This document shows, in pieces, positions 5,218 through 24,732 of a stretch of 33,871 bases of DNA (positions are counted from its first letter, which is position 1; every line of letters begins with the position of its first letter). The DNA is taken from assembly GCA_001303785.1 (NCBI GenBank), contig LJUJ01000026.1, positions 1-33,871 of the forward strand, given 5' to 3'. Both the position numbers and the translations under genes were made by a program. Below the pieces are notes generated by a model. That model ran no database searches and was not told where the DNA came from. It saw only the letters and a program-made list of their open reading frames with translations. This stretch comes from Caldifarciminota bacterium SM23_42 (GTDB lineage: Bacteria > Hydrothermota > Tepidihabitantia > SM23-42).

Positions 5218-6192
5218 ATGAAAACCATCAAACCAGTGAAACTCACAAGAGAGACTCCTATTGATGAGCTAAAAGGATTGAAGACTAAAACGAAGATTTT
5301 CGTTAAACGCGATGATTTGAATGGGCTACTTATCTCGGGTAATAAAGCAAGAAAACTTGAGTATTTGATTGCCGATGCAAAGAAGAATAAATGTGATACC
5401 ATTGTTACCTGTGGTGCGGTTCAATCAAACCACTGTCGAACAGCGGCGGTATTTGCGAAACACTTCGGATTTGAATGTCATCTCTTCCTTCGCGTCCACG
5501 GATCCCCGCGTAAGGTTTATAGTGGAAATCTTTTGATCGATGAGCTACTCGGCGCAAATGTAAAGTACCTTACACCTACCCAATATGAGAGGCGCACGGA
5601 AGTCATGGAACGCTATGCGCAAAAACTAAGGAAAAAGGGAAAAACACCGTATGTTATACCAGAGGGGGGATCGAACGAAATTGGCGCTCTGGGTTATCTT
5701 GATTGTATGAAGGAGATGGCAGAAATTATTAAGCAGCAACAGATAGACGCGGTTTACTGTGCTGTCGGTTCTGGAGGCACTTACTCAGGATTATTGCTTG
5801 GCAAGAAGTTGTTAGATTTGAGAATCGCCCTGAATGGAGTAATCGTCTGCGATACTGTTGAGCATTTTCGAGAAAGAATTTATGGCATCTGCGTACGGGC
5901 AATAAGTAGATTCAAATTCCCAAAGGAAATCTCCCCTAATGACATTTACCTCATTGATGGCTATGTTGGCAAAGGTTATGGCATACCTTATCCTGAAGAA
6001 TTAAAGACTATAAGACATATTGCAAAATTAGGAATTATTCTGGATCCAGTTTACACGGGTAAAGCATTTCATGGTATGCTGAATGAAATCAAGAAACACA
6101 AGCACAAAAATGTTATCTTTGTTCACACCGGCGGAATTTTCAGCATATTCGCATATCAGAGGGAAATAACAAAAGCAATCCTCAGGCAATAG
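5218..6192 (+). CDS. PLP-dependent D-cysteine desulfhydrase / ACC deaminase family enzyme
   Basis: 324 residues, the normal length for the family. The PLP-binding lysine is K43 in SGNKARKLEYL; the substrate/cofactor loop QSNHCRTAA and the phosphate-binding glycines GSGGTYSG follow. The late motif LDPVYTGKAFHGM and VHTGGIFSIFAY are typical of D-cysteine desulfhydrase and relatives, which cleave D-cysteine to pyruvate, ammonia and sulfide. ACC deaminases share the fold, so the substrate is not settled by sequence alone. It is cytoplasmic (no signal peptide). It appears monocistronic with its own close promoter and converges on the lipocalin-like gene. The ATG has no SD. Confidence 0.88.
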   Translation: MKTIKPVKLTRETPIDELKGLKTKTKIFVKRDDLNGLLISGNKARKLEYLIADAKKNKCDTIVTCGAVQSNHCRTAAVFAKHFGFECHLFLRVHGSPRKVYSGNLLIDELLGANVKYLTPTQYERRTEVMERYAQKLRKKGKTPYVIPEGGSNEIGALGYLDCMKEMAEIIKQQQIDAVYCAVGSGGTYSGLLLGKKLLDLRIALNGVIVCDTVEHFRERIYGICVRAISRFKFPKEISPNDIYLIDGYVGKGYGIPYPEELKTIRHIAKLGIILDPVYTGKAFHGMLNEIKKHKHKNVIFVHTGGIFSIFAYQREITKAILRQ

Positions 6193-6310
6193 ACTGGGTT
6201 AGGTCCATTCCTAAAGGTTATTTAAAAGAGCCAACGTGTGCGGACCTTAAGGCACGAGGAGAATAATTCAAGGGACTTAACCGCAGCCTCTTCCGTGTGA
6301 AATGCTGGCG

Positions 6311-9568: not shown

Positions 9569-11488
9569 ATGAAGTGCCAACGGTTCATAGAGACACTGGG
9601 CGTGTCTTGTCTTGTTGTTCTTACATTACCTTGTATTGGTGCCGCCGAACTCATTCACGGCTCAGCCGATCCCGTCGAGGCATGGAATAGTGGTCATTAT
9701 TTTGTTGAAGAAGGACCCATTCGTCAGGCTACACTATATACTGACGGCTCGGTCCATCAACTCCCGACTCTAATCGTAACGTGGCCAGTGACAAACAGCG
9801 ATATGACAAATGTTTCCTTCGATGACTTTAGGAGAATGGTAATGACCTCACGTGAAGCATTTGGTAACGATCCAAATAAAATCGTGGTCAGCGGTGAAAT
9901 ATCACGTAACGGGTTGAATATTGTCTTCAATGTCTCCAGTCCTCCTCCGGGTGTTACTGCCGCGTTGGAATCCGTTGCAACGTACATCGAAAATGTGTTC
10001 AGCGATAGCGCCACCGTCACGATCAATATGAATTTTCAACCGCTTGGCCCTGGCATCCTTGGGATGGCAAGTAGTTCTATGGCGCCTGTTCCTTCCTGGA
10101 CTGATGCACGTAACTGTCTGATCAACGATATGGATGATGACGATTCCATGCAGCTCTGGTTACCATCAGGCAACACGATCCCGGTGCGCTACGAGTACAC
10201 CTTGCCGACAATCACCAATGAAGACCGCTGTTGGTTCAGAGTGGCAACATATAATGCTGCAATTGGCTATTGTCCCGGTGTTGCAGCTCAGATTACTTTC
10301 AATTCAACCATCACTTGGGACTGCGATCCAAGTGATGGTATCACGGGTTATTGCTTCCAGTCGGTGACTGCCCACGAGATAGGGCACGTGTTAGGCTTTG
10401 GCTGCGGTGCATGGATGAATTTTGATATAGAGGCGCTCGACATTTATCGCTTCCAATTTTCCGACAGCATATTTGATTACAACCCAGATGATTTGTACGA
10501 ATTCCAGACCACGGCACGCATGGTTGATGAATCCCCTGGAGACAACGATGTCATAAGCGATTTGATCAGTGTTGAATACCGCATGTCAGATGGGAGTCCG
10601 TATCAGTGTTCGCACTTTATGCAGAACGCCGTCAATGCTATCATGCAACCCGCGATAGGTTCCAGCCAAACATACTACCCCTGCTTCTATAGGGCTCCGG
10701 ATAGAATCATGTTCGACGCAATCGGGTGGGACTATTTACTTTCGTATTTTTTAGCAACCAGAACGCATCTTGGAAGTGGCACAATAGAAAGGAATCCTGA
10801 CTCATCATGGTACAGTCCGGGAACAGAAATCGAACTCACCGCAGTCCCGGATGTGGGATGGGAGTTTGTTAATTGGTTGGGTGACCTTTCCGGGAGTGAC
10901 AACCCGGATACTATAATCATGGACGACGACAAGACGGTATTGGCTTATTTTCAGACAGCGAATTGTACTCTGACAATATATACTGATGGAAATGGTTCAG
11001 TCATAAGAAATCCTGCTCTACCCTATTATCCAAGCGGAAGTGCGGTCGAACTTACTGCCGTTCCTGATACGGGTTGGGAATTCAGCCACTGGAGCGGTAA
11101 TCTATGGGGGTCTCAGAATCCGGATACGATTATCATGAACAATGACAAAACAGTGACCGCGCACTTCACACAGATGGGCATCGAAGAAATCTCTGGTGAT
11201 TTGGTCGCAGTAACATCTCTGGAAGTCTTTCCGAATCCGTTTAGTGATTTCACGGATATCAGATACCAGATATCGGATAACAGCAGAGAGGCCACTTTGA
11301 AAATAATTGATATTTCAGGTAGAATAGTGAAGCTTCTGAATATACCGTCATCCGATATCGGTCATCAGTTGTCAGTGAGTTGGGACGGAAGGGACTATAC
11401 AGGAAGAAAGGTTCCGACTGGTGTTTATTTTGTTAAACTCGAAACAACCGATGAAAAAATCACAAAACCGATACTCTTACTCAAATAA
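9569..11488 (+). CDS. Secreted HExxH zinc protease (NF038122-like) with two InlB-type repeats and sorting domain
   Basis: 639 residues: signal peptide (1-26, ..LPCIGAA); metalloprotease region to about 390 with the zinc motif HEIGHVLGFGC (H269, E270, H273); two tandem repeats (about 396-462 and 467-536) of the divergent InlB B-repeat kind, each with G.G...RNP, YY/WY.PG/SG..VELTAVPD.GWEF..W.G, NPDTIIM..DKTV.A.F; and a FlgD-like sorting domain (about 545-639, VFPNPFSDFTDIRYQISD... WDGRD ... GVYFVKLE). Metzincins carry His or Asp three residues after the Gly of the motif; here that position is Cys279, so a downstream residue (D286, E288 or D291) may complete the site. SD AAGGGGG precedes the ATG. 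A terminator follows at 11510. Confidence 0.85.
   Translation: MKCQRFIETLGVSCLVVLTLPCIGAAELIHGSADPVEAWNSGHYFVEEGPIRQATLYTDGSVHQLPTLIVTWPVTNSDMTNVSFDDFRRMVMTSREAFGNDPNKIVVSGEISRNGLNIVFNVSSPPPGVTAALESVATYIENVFSDSATVTINMNFQPLGPGILGMASSSMAPVPSWTDARNCLINDMDDDDSMQLWLPSGNTIPVRYEYTLPTITNEDRCWFRVATYNAAIGYCPGVAAQITFNSTITWDCDPSDGITGYCFQSVTAHEIGHVLGFGCGAWMNFDIEALDIYRFQFSDSIFDYNPDDLYEFQTTARMVDESPGDNDVISDLISVEYRMSDGSPYQCSHFMQNAVNAIMQPAIGSSQTYYPCFYRAPDRIMFDAIGWDYLLSYFLATRTHLGSGTIERNPDSSWYSPGTEIELTAVPDVGWEFVNWLGDLSGSDNPDTIIMDDDKTVLAYFQTANCTLTIYTDGNGSVIRNPALPYYPSGSAVELTAVPDTGWEFSHWSGNLWGSQNPDTIIMNNDKTVTAHFTQMGIEEISGDLVAVTSLEVFPNPFSDFTDIRYQISDNSREATLKIIDISGRIVKLLNIPSSDIGHQLSVSWDGRDYTGRKVPTGVYFVKLETTDEKITKPILLLK
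11327..11369 (+). repeat. 43-base repeat in sorting-domain DNA (copy 2)
   Basis: Partner of 7765-7807 in inverted orientation. It encodes VKLLNIPSSDIGHQ. The match continues more weakly on both sides. Confidence 0.8.
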
Positions 11489-21238: not shown

Positions 21239-21613
21239 TTAAGTCACACCGAGCATTTTGCGATTTTCTTCAGTATCCTCATAAATGCGCCATTCCGCGA
21301 CAAGGTCGTTTTCTATCCTTGCCGTCCAAATGGCGGGGTCATATTTGTTTTCTTCTGACCAATATGCGTACCCTATTAAGATAACCAGATCATCTTGCGA
21401 TCCAACTCTGGTGAAAGTGTTCCTGTATTTTGGAAAGCTCTTGAAGAACTCTATCCACCCCTTGGTCATTGATCCTTTTCCTTTATCCACCTCTCCTTTT
21501 CGATCGATGAAAGTATGGTCTTCAGTCATCAGGCTGGAGAGTCCTTTTATGTCTTGCTTATTAATGTACTCGTTAAACTGAAGAGCGATTAGTTTTGGAT
21601 CTGTTGTATTCAT
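21239..21613 (-). CDS. SnoaL/NTF2-like nuclear-transport-factor fold protein
   Basis: 124 residues. DPKLIALQFNEYINKQDIKGLSSLMTEDHTFIDRKGEVDKGK, WIEFFKSFPKYRNTFTRV and WTARIENDLVAEWRIYED follow the SnoaL/NTF2-like plan: helix, 'D...L..L...D..F.D..G', then a curved sheet ending in 'I.D..V.EWR.Y.D'. Members are small ligand-binding or isomerase-like pockets; substrate unknown. The ATG at 21613 overlaps the stop of the GNAT gene by ATGA, so I prefer it to an upstream TTG at 21634. It is the last gene of a run that starts with the broken hydrolase. Confidence 0.82.
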   Translation of the reverse strand: MNTTDPKLIALQFNEYINKQDIKGLSSLMTEDHTFIDRKGEVDKGKGSMTKGWIEFFKSFPKYRNTFTRVGSQDDLVILIGYAYWSEENKYDPAIWTARIENDLVAEWRIYEDTEENRKMLGVT

Positions 21614-22173
21614 TTTGCTTCTCGTTTTTCCCAATCTTCACGAAGCAATCCAAAATGTAAGCGATCAACCCATTCATTCAGCCAAAACATAATCTGTCTG
21701 TCAGTACCTTCATGAATGAAGCCCAGTTTCTCTCCGGTACGTATCATTCTCTCGTTAAATGAGTAAGTATCAAAGCCGATGCGGTGAACATCCGAGTTTG
21801 AGAAAAGGTAGTCGATCCACAGTCTCAACGCCTCAGTACCAAAACCCTTGTTCAAACAATCGTCCTCACAAATATCAATTCCTATGGACCAAGCACTCGG
21901 GGATCTTTTATCCCCGTACCGGTTAACCCAACCTAAAGCTCTTTCTTCTTTCTTGCAGATTATGGCACGCTTGCGCGGCACTGAAAGGCCGTGCAAGAAT
22001 CTCTCTGAAAAGCTTCTTCTGATTTCTTGGTCAGTCATAGATTGTCCACCAGTTTCCCAGGGTGCATCGAAACGCATCCATTCACCGCGCCTCATCCACC
22101 GGATATAGTCATCCGCGTCAGAGAGAAGTCCGTCTCGCAGAATCACCCTTTGCCCCGACGCAATCACCACCAT
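21610..22173 (-). CDS. GNAT family N-acetyltransferase (RimJ/RimL-like)
   Basis: 187 residues. It begins with ASGQRVILRDGLLSDADDYIRWM, the usual beta1/alpha1 of RimJ/RimL-type acetyltransferases. The acetyl-CoA loop is in LNKGFGTEALRLWIDYLF (Q/R-x-x-G-x-G/A region with N-K-G-F-G), and the terminal motif VHRIGFDTYSFNERMIRTGEKLGFIHEG is typical (N.. ....Y.K.GF). It transfers acetyl groups to an amine substrate, unidentified. It starts 4 bases after the remains of the alpha/beta hydrolase and overlaps the NTF2-like gene by ATGA. Confidence 0.88.
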   Translation of the reverse strand: MVVIASGQRVILRDGLLSDADDYIRWMRRGEWMRFDAPWETGGQSMTDQEIRRSFSERFLHGLSVPRKRAIICKKEERALGWVNRYGDKRSPSAWSIGIDICEDDCLNKGFGTEALRLWIDYLFSNSDVHRIGFDTYSFNERMIRTGEKLGFIHEGTDRQIMFWLNEWVDRLHFGLLREDWEKREAK

Positions 22174-22177
22174 TAGA

Positions 22178-22783
22178 CTATGTTCTTAATTCTGCTTTAA
22201 GGATCCCAAAGAACTCACTCCTTGCCTGCCTCTCAATCCAGGGTGTATGGCCACAATTCTTGATCGGAATGAATCGAAACTCCTTCAGCATCCTTCCAAA
22301 CGCTTTGAAAGACGTGATACTGAACTGCAAGCGTCTCATCTTTTTGCTGTATGGGATCATAAGCGTCAGCTTTGGCAATCAATTCCATTTGGTCAAGGTA
22401 AGGACTTCTCTCTTTTCTTCGGCGTCGAGTCGATCCAACCGGCTTTCCATTATAACTCGAGCATATTTTTTATCAAATGGTCCGCTGCTGACTAATATCA
22501 GCTTCCTCACCTTGGATGGATAGCGGGCAGCAACAATGAAACCCAACCAGGCACCCCATGAATAGCCAATAAGTGTAATCGGAAGGTCTGCGTATGCGCC
22601 AAGAATGTAATTTAATTCTTCAACCTGTCCTTCAAGTGTACCCGCAGTCTGGAGAGGTTCCAAAACGCCCTGTTCAGATGCAAGTTCACGCGCTACCGGA
22701 CCCATTTCTCCGGGTACACCAGGGCCTCCATGAATTACCGCTACTCCGTATGGTGCCCTGCCATATTTTCTCAAATTTTTCAT
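22178..22783 (-). pseudogene. Decayed alpha/beta hydrolase (proline iminopeptidase-like), split over three frames
   Basis: The N-terminal part (22783-22379, 134 codons) is a good alpha/beta hydrolase start: VAVIHGGPGVPGEM (oxyanion loop) and the nucleophile elbow LIGYSWGAWLG, up to a TGA after LTLTKWN. In a second frame (about 22382-22281) the expected lid sequence appears (KADAYDP ... VQYHVFQSVWKDAEG). In a third frame (about 22290-22178) comes the C-terminus with the catalytic His (IPIKNCGHTPWIER). The segment that should hold the catalytic Asp is missing. At least two frame changes and two deletions are needed, so the gene is inactivated. It lies 8 bases from a long inverted repeat. Confidence 0.85.
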
Positions 22784-22791
22784 AAACCGCC

Positions 22792-22871
22792 AGTGGGGTC
22801 AGAACTAGACAATGGACAATAGGTATCAACAACACACATGATTTTGTCCATTGTCTAGATCTGACCCCACT
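22792..22871. repeat. Inverted repeat element with 28-base arms (GGGGTCAG core)
   Basis: Arms 22792-22819 and 22844-22871 pair with one mismatch; the loop is 24 bases. The outer core is AGTGGGGTCAG ... CTGACCCCACT and the inner part CTAGACAATGGACA. It has no ORF and no terminator U-tract. The same GGGGTCA core occurs in a second palindrome at 29199-29226. It is REP/MITE-like in appearance. It sits between the micro-ORF and the 5' end of the hydrolase pseudogene. Confidence 0.85.
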
Positions 22872-22897
22872 ATCGACTCTTTTATGAAGCTCGCTTT

Positions 22898-23014
22898 TCA
22901 TGCCGGCGTCTTCATTAATTTGTATTCTGACAATCTGATACCGAGTCCAGACAAAGGATCCTTGCCAACAACTGTCTTGTAACTCAAACGAAATCTATCT
23001 ACGTGGAATGGCAT
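22898..23014 (-). CDS. Possible 38-residue protein with strong SD
   Basis: On the minus strand GAGGAGG lies 4 bases before an ATG at 23014 that opens a 38-codon ORF (MPFHVDRFRLSYKTVV ... YKLMKTPA). The SD is among the best in the window. I do not recognise the product. It ends 26 bases before the inverted repeat, so it may be the 5' stump of a gene truncated by that element, or a genuine micropeptide. It lies 46 bases downstream of the serine hydrolase gene and could be co-transcribed with it. Confidence 0.4.
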   Translation of the reverse strand: MPFHVDRFRLSYKTVVGKDPLSGLGIRLSEYKLMKTPA

Positions 23015-23060
23015 AAATCCTCCTCACGGAATTTCATATGTCTTGAAAGAGAATTGAAGC

Positions 23061-24548
23061 TTAGTTTAGCAAAATAGTGCGTTTTGTTCGACTTTGGTCC
23101 CCAGTGCTGAGCCGATAATAATAAACACCGCTCGGGATTCCGGCCGCGTTCCAAACGATTTTGTGTTCACCTGCCTCAAGCTTATGATCAACCAATGTCC
23201 TTACTTCTTGGCCTATGACATTGTAAATCTTCAATGAAATATCGTCTGCTTCGGGCAACACAAATCGAATGTTTGTCACGCTGTGAAACGGATTTGGACA
23301 ATTCTGGAATAGTCTAACCATCGACGGCATCGCGGCACGTGATTCTTTTTCAGCAACGCCAAACTGCGCCGCATAATTCAGAAGCGCGATGGTTATCTGC
23401 GTAACACTACTTATATCTTCCCCATTCGTTAGTACTATGGCCCCGGTATTGTTGCTCCGGTCAAAAGCAATTCTGGTACGAATGCCATCGAAGACACCTT
23501 GATGTCCCCAGATCCACCTTCCATCAAGGAATTTGCGATACCAGAAAAGTCCTTGCTCGGGGTTTAATATGGGGTACTGCGGTGTAGTCATTAGCTCCAC
23601 CGTCGCGCTATCAAGTATTCTCACCGTGTCATCGATCAGCCCGTATTGCATGAAGGCGACAAGAAAACGTGCCAGCTGATTCGAACTCGTCCTGAGAGTC
23701 CCGCAGGGATAGTAAGGCTTACCTATGTGCCCGTATGGAACATGGGTAGAACCATCCCAGTGATACGGCATTGCGATGTTGCTGGTATCGAGGTCGACCA
23801 AAAAATATGACGTCTCATTCATACTCAAAATCTCAAAGAGGGAATCATGACACCATATTGGGAAACTATCGGCCACTGTTTCAACCAGATAACCAGCCAG
23901 TGCGGCAGCCACGTTACAGTAGTCATCCTGTGTCGCAGGAGGCCAGGGATTATAATTGTCTGGGCTGTAGTATTCTCCACCCGGTACCAGGTATTGCTCG
24001 AGGAAATATCCCAGGGGAATCGGAGAATCTCCCTGTATGTTCAGGGGACCCAGAATATCATAGTTGTCATTGATACTCGACATATGGGTCATGATCATTC
24101 GAATTGTTATTACTGAATCTGGGTATAATGGATTGCGTACCGTAAAAGTGAGATAGTCACTGACATCGTCGCCTAGGTCGAATGGATAATTCTCCCACAC
24201 CTGCATTAATGCAACACCCGTCGCGGTCTTAGAGACCGAACCAAGATAGAAGATTGTCGTGTCGGCAACCGGCATGCTATCTTCGAGAACCGCGTAGCCA
24301 TAGGATTGGTTCCAGAGGATCTGGCCATCCCTGATTGCCATCGAGGTCAATCCTGGAATATGATTTTCAGCCATCTTATAGCATATTAATGAATCAAGCG
24401 AAGCAGAATCGCGCGGGACGATAAATTCATCGCACTCAACCTGCTCAATTCTAACATCATATTCGGGTTCGTGGATGTCGATTGACGACGCGTTAATAAA
24501 AGTTGTCGCTCCCACAATCCAAAGTAGAATGAGTACTATTTTATGCAT
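23061..24548 (-). CDS. Secreted class C beta-lactamase-family serine hydrolase with sorting domain
   Basis: 495 residues from the ATG at 24548: signal peptide (MHKIVLILLWIVGATTFINAS), then a class C beta-lactamase/DD-peptidase fold with S104-x-x-K107 (LGSVSKT), a Tyr-x-Asn box (DDYCNVAAAL) and WGHQGVFDG as the KTG-equivalent HxG. The C-terminal about 85 residues (LFQNCPNPFHSVTNIRF ... KIYNVIGQEVRTLVD ... GVYYYRLSTG) are a typical sorting domain. Likely an esterase or peptidase acting outside the cell; a true beta-lactamase function is not implied. The frame extends to a TTG at 24599, but that region holds the predicted promoter. No SD precedes the ATG. Confidence 0.88.
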   Translation of the reverse strand: MHKIVLILLWIVGATTFINASSIDIHEPEYDVRIEQVECDEFIVPRDSASLDSLICYKMAENHIPGLTSMAIRDGQILWNQSYGYAVLEDSMPVADTTIFYLGSVSKTATGVALMQVWENYPFDLGDDVSDYLTFTVRNPLYPDSVITIRMIMTHMSSINDNYDILGPLNIQGDSPIPLGYFLEQYLVPGGEYYSPDNYNPWPPATQDDYCNVAAALAGYLVETVADSFPIWCHDSLFEILSMNETSYFLVDLDTSNIAMPYHWDGSTHVPYGHIGKPYYPCGTLRTSSNQLARFLVAFMQYGLIDDTVRILDSATVELMTTPQYPILNPEQGLFWYRKFLDGRWIWGHQGVFDGIRTRIAFDRSNNTGAIVLTNGEDISSVTQITIALLNYAAQFGVAEKESRAAMPSMVRLFQNCPNPFHSVTNIRFVLPEADDISLKIYNVIGQEVRTLVDHKLEAGEHKIVWNAAGIPSGVYYYRLSTGDQSRTKRTILLN

Positions 24549-24559
24549 ATGGGTCAGTA

Positions 24560-24587
24560 ACTGTAACAAGAAAACCTTAAAAGTCAA
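24560..24587 (-). promoter_or_regulatory. Predicted promoter for the serine hydrolase, near-leaderless
   Basis: Minus strand TTGACT (24587-24582), 16-base spacer, TACAGT (24565-24560), 11 bases before the SD-less ATG at 24548; the predicted leader is only a few bases. Confidence 0.5.
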
Positions 24588-24732
24588 GGTTGAAGTCAAA
24601 TTTAGTCGACAGTTCCCGTAAGATCATATTGATATTGTGCCGAGTACAGTATCTGCCAGATAATAGGCAAGCACAGAACGGACAACAGTTTCATCAGCAG
24701 TTACCAAACACTTATCCCGTTTATTACCCTAA

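Follow-up and report, generated by a model that had tools for sequence, protein, structure and literature searches.

Decay of an alpha/beta hydrolase gene beside a short palindromic element in Caldifarciminota bacterium SM23_42

Results

The locus and its neighbours

The window analysed here is the whole 33,871-nt contig LJUJ01000026.1 (C30) of Caldifarciminota bacterium SM23_42, whose genome (G000) comprises 2.53 Mb in 59 contigs, and we compared it with seven other genomes of the genus (G001-G007) and with a wider set of 61 genomes. The named relatives that best match the hydrolase fragment described below include candidate division WOR-3 MAGs, and we treat the genome as WOR-3. The gene cluster at the locus consists of a serine hydrolase, a DUF6144-like gene, an alpha/beta hydrolase, a GNAT gene and a SnoaL gene, and carries the following features in the window:

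21239-21634, minus strand: SnoaL/NTF2-like gene, overlapping the GNAT gene by 25 nt
21610-22173, minus strand: GNAT acetyltransferase gene, open frame, downstream neighbour
22178-22783, minus strand: pseudogene of an alpha/beta hydrolase, from its ATG to the last stop codon (from tblastn with relatives, alignment and lengths)
22388-22783, minus strand: hydrolase codons 1-132, first frame (ORF of 134 aa ending at 22379; GYSWG motif)
22284-22385, minus strand: hydrolase residues ~151-184, read in the second frame beyond an inferred deletion of 52 nt
22283-22291, minus strand: ATGCTGAAG, a 9-nt word at the junction of the second deletion that can be read, in the two frames, as either flank
22178-22291, minus strand: hydrolase residues ~225-261, first frame again, after an inferred 128-nt deletion (CGHTPW motif)
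22792-22871, no strand assigned: 80-bp palindromic doublet whose arms resemble the end sequences of a RAYT-like transposase element
22872-23014, minus strand: remnant of a DUF6144-like gene, residues 1 to ~48 of 183, with one TGA inside
23061-24599, minus strand: upstream neighbour, a secreted serine hydrolase (PF00144, Beta-lactamase family; Por_Secre_tail)

The genes adjoining the broken locus are open frames, and the overlap of the GNAT and SnoaL/NTF2-like genes, which an earlier note on this DNA had called normal, is likewise 25 nt in G006. A metallo-beta-lactamase-fold gene (PF00753; 20302-21168) lies between the SnoaL gene and a BNR-repeat gene, and has no match in the compared stretches of the seven sister genomes. 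No tRNA or tmRNA was found in the window.

A hydrolase with two inferred internal deletions

The hydrolase was found in nine of the 61 genomes searched, the window's own among them, and the eight other matching genomes (for example the intact gene at G006:C179:6220-7005) share 57-72% identity with window residues 1-132. It stands in an open frame of 263-272 codons in six of the seven other genus genomes, with a full reading in G002, G003, G004 and G006 (260-261 aa) and a tblastn match in one piece, over residues 1-260, in G001 and G007. The window copy measures 606 nt against 786 nt in G006, and its alignment to that gene points to two internal deletions of about 52 and 128 nt, sizes that assume an ancestor of G006 length and that together make up the 180-nt difference. 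The earlier note had described hydrolase segments in the right order but in three frames; the order holds, on the minus strand, and alignment to relatives reduces the frames to two, since residues 1-132 are read in the first, ~151-184 in the second and ~225-261 in the first again.

The first fragment scores 39.2 bits against PF00561 (cut-off 25.8) and retains GYSWG, which we take to be the nucleophile (Ser) motif of the fold, as the 3' segment retains CGHTPW, presumably the His motif. The counterpart of HGDYDPH in intact relatives, which we assume bears the catalytic Asp, is absent, as the earlier note had supposed, and the second of the inferred deletions removed it. A functional PF00561 enzyme would have its nucleophile, Asp and His segments in a single open frame, and the window copy, its frame broken twice, falls outside that definition; as the Asp-bearing segment is gone, it can hardly be a working enzyme and is best read as a pseudogene.

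The junction of the second deletion suggests how that loss may have come about. The word ATGCTGAAG encodes most of DAE when read in one frame and MLK when read in the other. In the alignment, the first site holds DAE in relatives and the second holds MLN or VLK, so that the deletion looks like slippage between short direct repeats in an inferred ancestral sequence; the exact 9-nt word is present at both places in none of the three relatives shown. No clear microhomology was found at the junction of the first (52-nt) deletion.

A palindrome on the junction of an upstream deletion

The 80-base inverted repeat at 22792-22871 has 28-nt arms that are 96% complementary, and lies beyond chance: the longest arm in 100 first-order Markov simulations of the window was 16 nt (one mismatch, spacer up to 100). 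Folded as single-stranded DNA it reaches -29 kcal/mol, against a shuffle mean of -8.0, and none of 200 shuffles folded as well. The repeat, and its separation by 8 bases from the hydrolase start codon (ATG at 22783), agree with the earlier note. Relatives align from that ATG, and we therefore rejected both an element within the hydrolase coding sequence and a pseudogene reaching into the repeat.

Comparison with G006 shows what the palindrome replaces. By blastn, window 22870-24416 corresponds to G006 5778-4233 and window 22427-22784 to G006 6576-6219, while the intervening ~440 bp of G006 (5779-6218) have no blastn counterpart, the window having the 80-bp element and 8 nt there. The G006 counterpart of window 22872-23060 (E 3.5e-33; next best match among the 61 genomes 0.0024) takes in the last part of a spacer and the first part of a DUF6144-like gene of 183 aa (PF19641, E 2.1e-12) that sits between the serine hydrolase and the hydrolase. 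By this comparison, the element lies exactly on the junction of an upstream deletion that truncated the neighbouring gene and removed the region upstream of the hydrolase. The earlier note's view that decay is confined to the hydrolase must accordingly be given up, the DUF6144-like gene being truncated at the other edge of the repeat.

The whole DUF6144-like gene occurs in G006 only among the eight genus genomes, and would therefore either have been acquired ahead of the divergence of the window lineage from G006 or have been lost in the other genomes; the other DUF6144-like matches (E 1e-4 or better, the remnant apart) cover residues ~115-182 only. Further differences in content mark the cluster. 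The serine hydrolase of G005 adjoins the GNAT gene with no hydrolase between them, and GNAT has no match at 1e-15 anywhere in G001 (67% complete) or G004, where the compared stretches have a BNR-repeat gene after the hydrolase. Judged by gene content, this is a cluster that repeatedly loses genes.

A search expression allowing two substitutions detected no copy of the same element at this site in the stretches of G001-G007, from serine hydrolase to hydrolase (in G005, to GNAT), and a shared element at the site was rejected. Elsewhere the expression gives unpaired matches, of which one, in the G003 hydrolase coding sequence, departs from the head and looks like chance; a good end-like match lies 73 bp before the G003 serine hydrolase.

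Timing of the decay

Substitutions in hydrolase codons 1-130 are distributed similarly on the two branches: with G003 as outgroup, the window lineage has 16 synonymous (S) and 18 nonsynonymous (N) changes and the sister lineage 22 S and 23 N; with G002, the counts are 16 S and 21 N against 20 S and 19 N (pairwise dN 0.220, dS 0.886). Given these similar counts, which are small, the hydrolase branch was probably under constraint for most of its length and the decay seems recent. Two short segments give a weak hint of longer relaxation in an excess of N, residues 151-184 (window lineage 2 S, 2 N; sister 5 S, 1 N) and 30 codons of the 3' part (5 S, 3 N; sister 6 S, 0 N). As rate controls, GNAT gave 34 S and 22 N versus 16 S and 25 N with G003, and 28 S and 25 N versus 25 S and 20 N with G002; the serine hydrolase, of no help as a control with its saturated pairwise synonymous distance of 2.85, gave 104 S and 113 N in the window lineage versus 70 S and 47 N in G006.

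Related ends and their transposase

Sequences matching the palindrome arms stand as paired ends at three further places in the genome, which makes four with the window palindrome. One, C3:11703-12758, is a 1.05-kb unit with a 330-aa Y1_Tnp protein between inverted ends; the protein passes the Pfam gathering score (PF01797, 38.6 bits, cut-off 23) and scores 50.8 bits against the NCBIfam RAYT model NF047646, below the curated cut-off of 80. The other two are inverted pairs of 125 and 131 bp. The interiors of the non-autonomous pairs in this genome (L014, L015 and L016, on C3, C32 and C24) look unlike one another, as if the transposase were able to move whatever sits between two ends.

The 13-nt tail AGACAATGGACAA is common to the window arms and the right C3 end, the left end differing at one base, and the C3 transposase is therefore the probable mobiliser of the window element. 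It may nevertheless not be, since the window arms read GGGGTCAG at the position where the C3 element reads GGGGTCAA. The GGGGTCAG forms also occur in G001, G004, G005 and G007, and once in G018.

Across the wider set, a 25-mer with up to three mismatches was found in 15 of 61 genomes (nine matches in G000), against none of 61 for a reversed control. Inverted ends occur at 15 of 15 transposase loci in relatives (L083-L097), which were drawn from a larger list of matches. In 19 autonomous elements from relatives and from G000:C47 (L083-L097, L103, L104, L111 and L160), 37 of 38 ends begin GGGGTCAAATCT, a figure that is partly selection, the ends having been chosen by a search expression allowing up to two substitutions. 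For the 12-nt tail that follows, the two ends of an element agree without mismatch in 14 of the 19 and with one or two mismatches in five. Tail distance is correlated with transposase distance (Mantel r 0.355, with 0 of 2000 permutations as high; the L089 transposase frame is broken), a correlation suggesting that a tail and its transposase evolve in step.

In three sister genomes the serine hydrolase is preceded, at a distance of ~0.4-2.7 kb on its upstream side, by a gene distantly similar to RAYTs (27-28% identity):

L154 (G005:C62), 565-1161: distant RAYT-like gene
L157 (G004), 1243-1803: distant RAYT-like gene
L158 (G007), 9587-10216: distant RAYT-like gene

Discussion

We read the locus as a cluster that is losing genes, with a palindromic element on an upstream deletion beside a twice-deleted hydrolase, and give this reading a probability of roughly 0.8. 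By comparison with G006, a short non-autonomous palindromic element, of a kind presumably mobilised by a RAYT-like Y1 transposase, now occupies the place that in G006 belongs to the final three quarters of the DUF6144-like gene and to the spacer ahead of the hydrolase. If the ancestor was like G006, the hydrolase start was thereby cut off from its original upstream region. The hydrolase itself bears two small deletions, one of them resembling slippage, and loss of the upstream region would have set off its decay, although the alignments do not order these steps in time. That the element arrived with, or caused, the ~440-bp deletion, and that this in turn triggered the decay, is plausible. The earlier note had called a link between insertion and loss of function plausible, and the position of the element where ~440 bp of G006 are missing keeps it so; the element nevertheless lies outside the coding sequence, the frame damage consists of two separate internal deletions away from it, and a second gene is also broken.

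The strongest alternative, which we consider a serious possibility though somewhat short of even odds, is that these neighbours are unrelated: the element entered neutral sequence beside a hydrolase that by then was inactive or no longer needed, and the DUF6144-like deletion was a third independent event. G005, which lacks both the hydrolase and an element at the site, counts for this alternative and against a causal link, and the missing GNAT of the G001 and G004 stretches indicates that the cluster loses genes anyway; the exact placement of the element on the junction argues against coincidence. The opposite extreme, in which insertion of a RAYT-type palindrome directly made the ~440-bp flanking deletion and one event set off the loss of two genes, seems to us unlikely. 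Errors of assembly or consensus are a natural concern for a contig from a 59-contig MAG, but we think it improbable that they made the breaks, as there are three separate losses of different size, all of them flanked by stretches in good alignment with relatives, the 80-bp element is typical of the genome, and neighbouring genes have open frames. Least credible is that the first fragment, of 134 aa, continues to serve as a protein: codons 1-130 have no clear excess of amino-acid changes and the PF00561 match is above cut-off, but recent loss yields the same substitution pattern, and the fragment has neither the regions of the fold with Asp and His nor its native upstream region.

The element family resembles the RAYT/REPIN systems, in the passages of PMC2817692 and PMC3116915 that describe these as a Y1 transposase gene between inverted copies of a short sequence, with inverted doublets that form hairpins: the C3 Y1_Tnp gene is flanked by two inverted copies of a short sequence, and the window doublet could form a single-strand hairpin. 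The elements differ from the RAYT/REPIN description in PMC2817692 in their head, GGGGTCA rather than GTAG or GTGG, and in their number, nine 25-mer matches in G000 compared with the usual more than 100, and the C3 protein falls short of the RAYT model cut-off. The Y1 transposase also recalls MITE-like derivatives of IS200/IS605 elements, although the elements here have terminal inverted repeats, which known IS200/IS605 members lack in the account given in PMC2817692. Our literature search found no report on a REP-associated transposase in WOR-3, or on a REP-associated tyrosine transposase in candidate phyla.

On the preferred reading, the locus looks like an ordinary case of genes decaying, fairly recently, next to a miniature mobile element that depends on a transposase for its movement, and it leaves general understanding unchanged. 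Its value is that of a clear comparative example from an uncultured lineage, and it draws attention to RAYT-like transposases in this WOR-3 family that have palindromic ends of their own.
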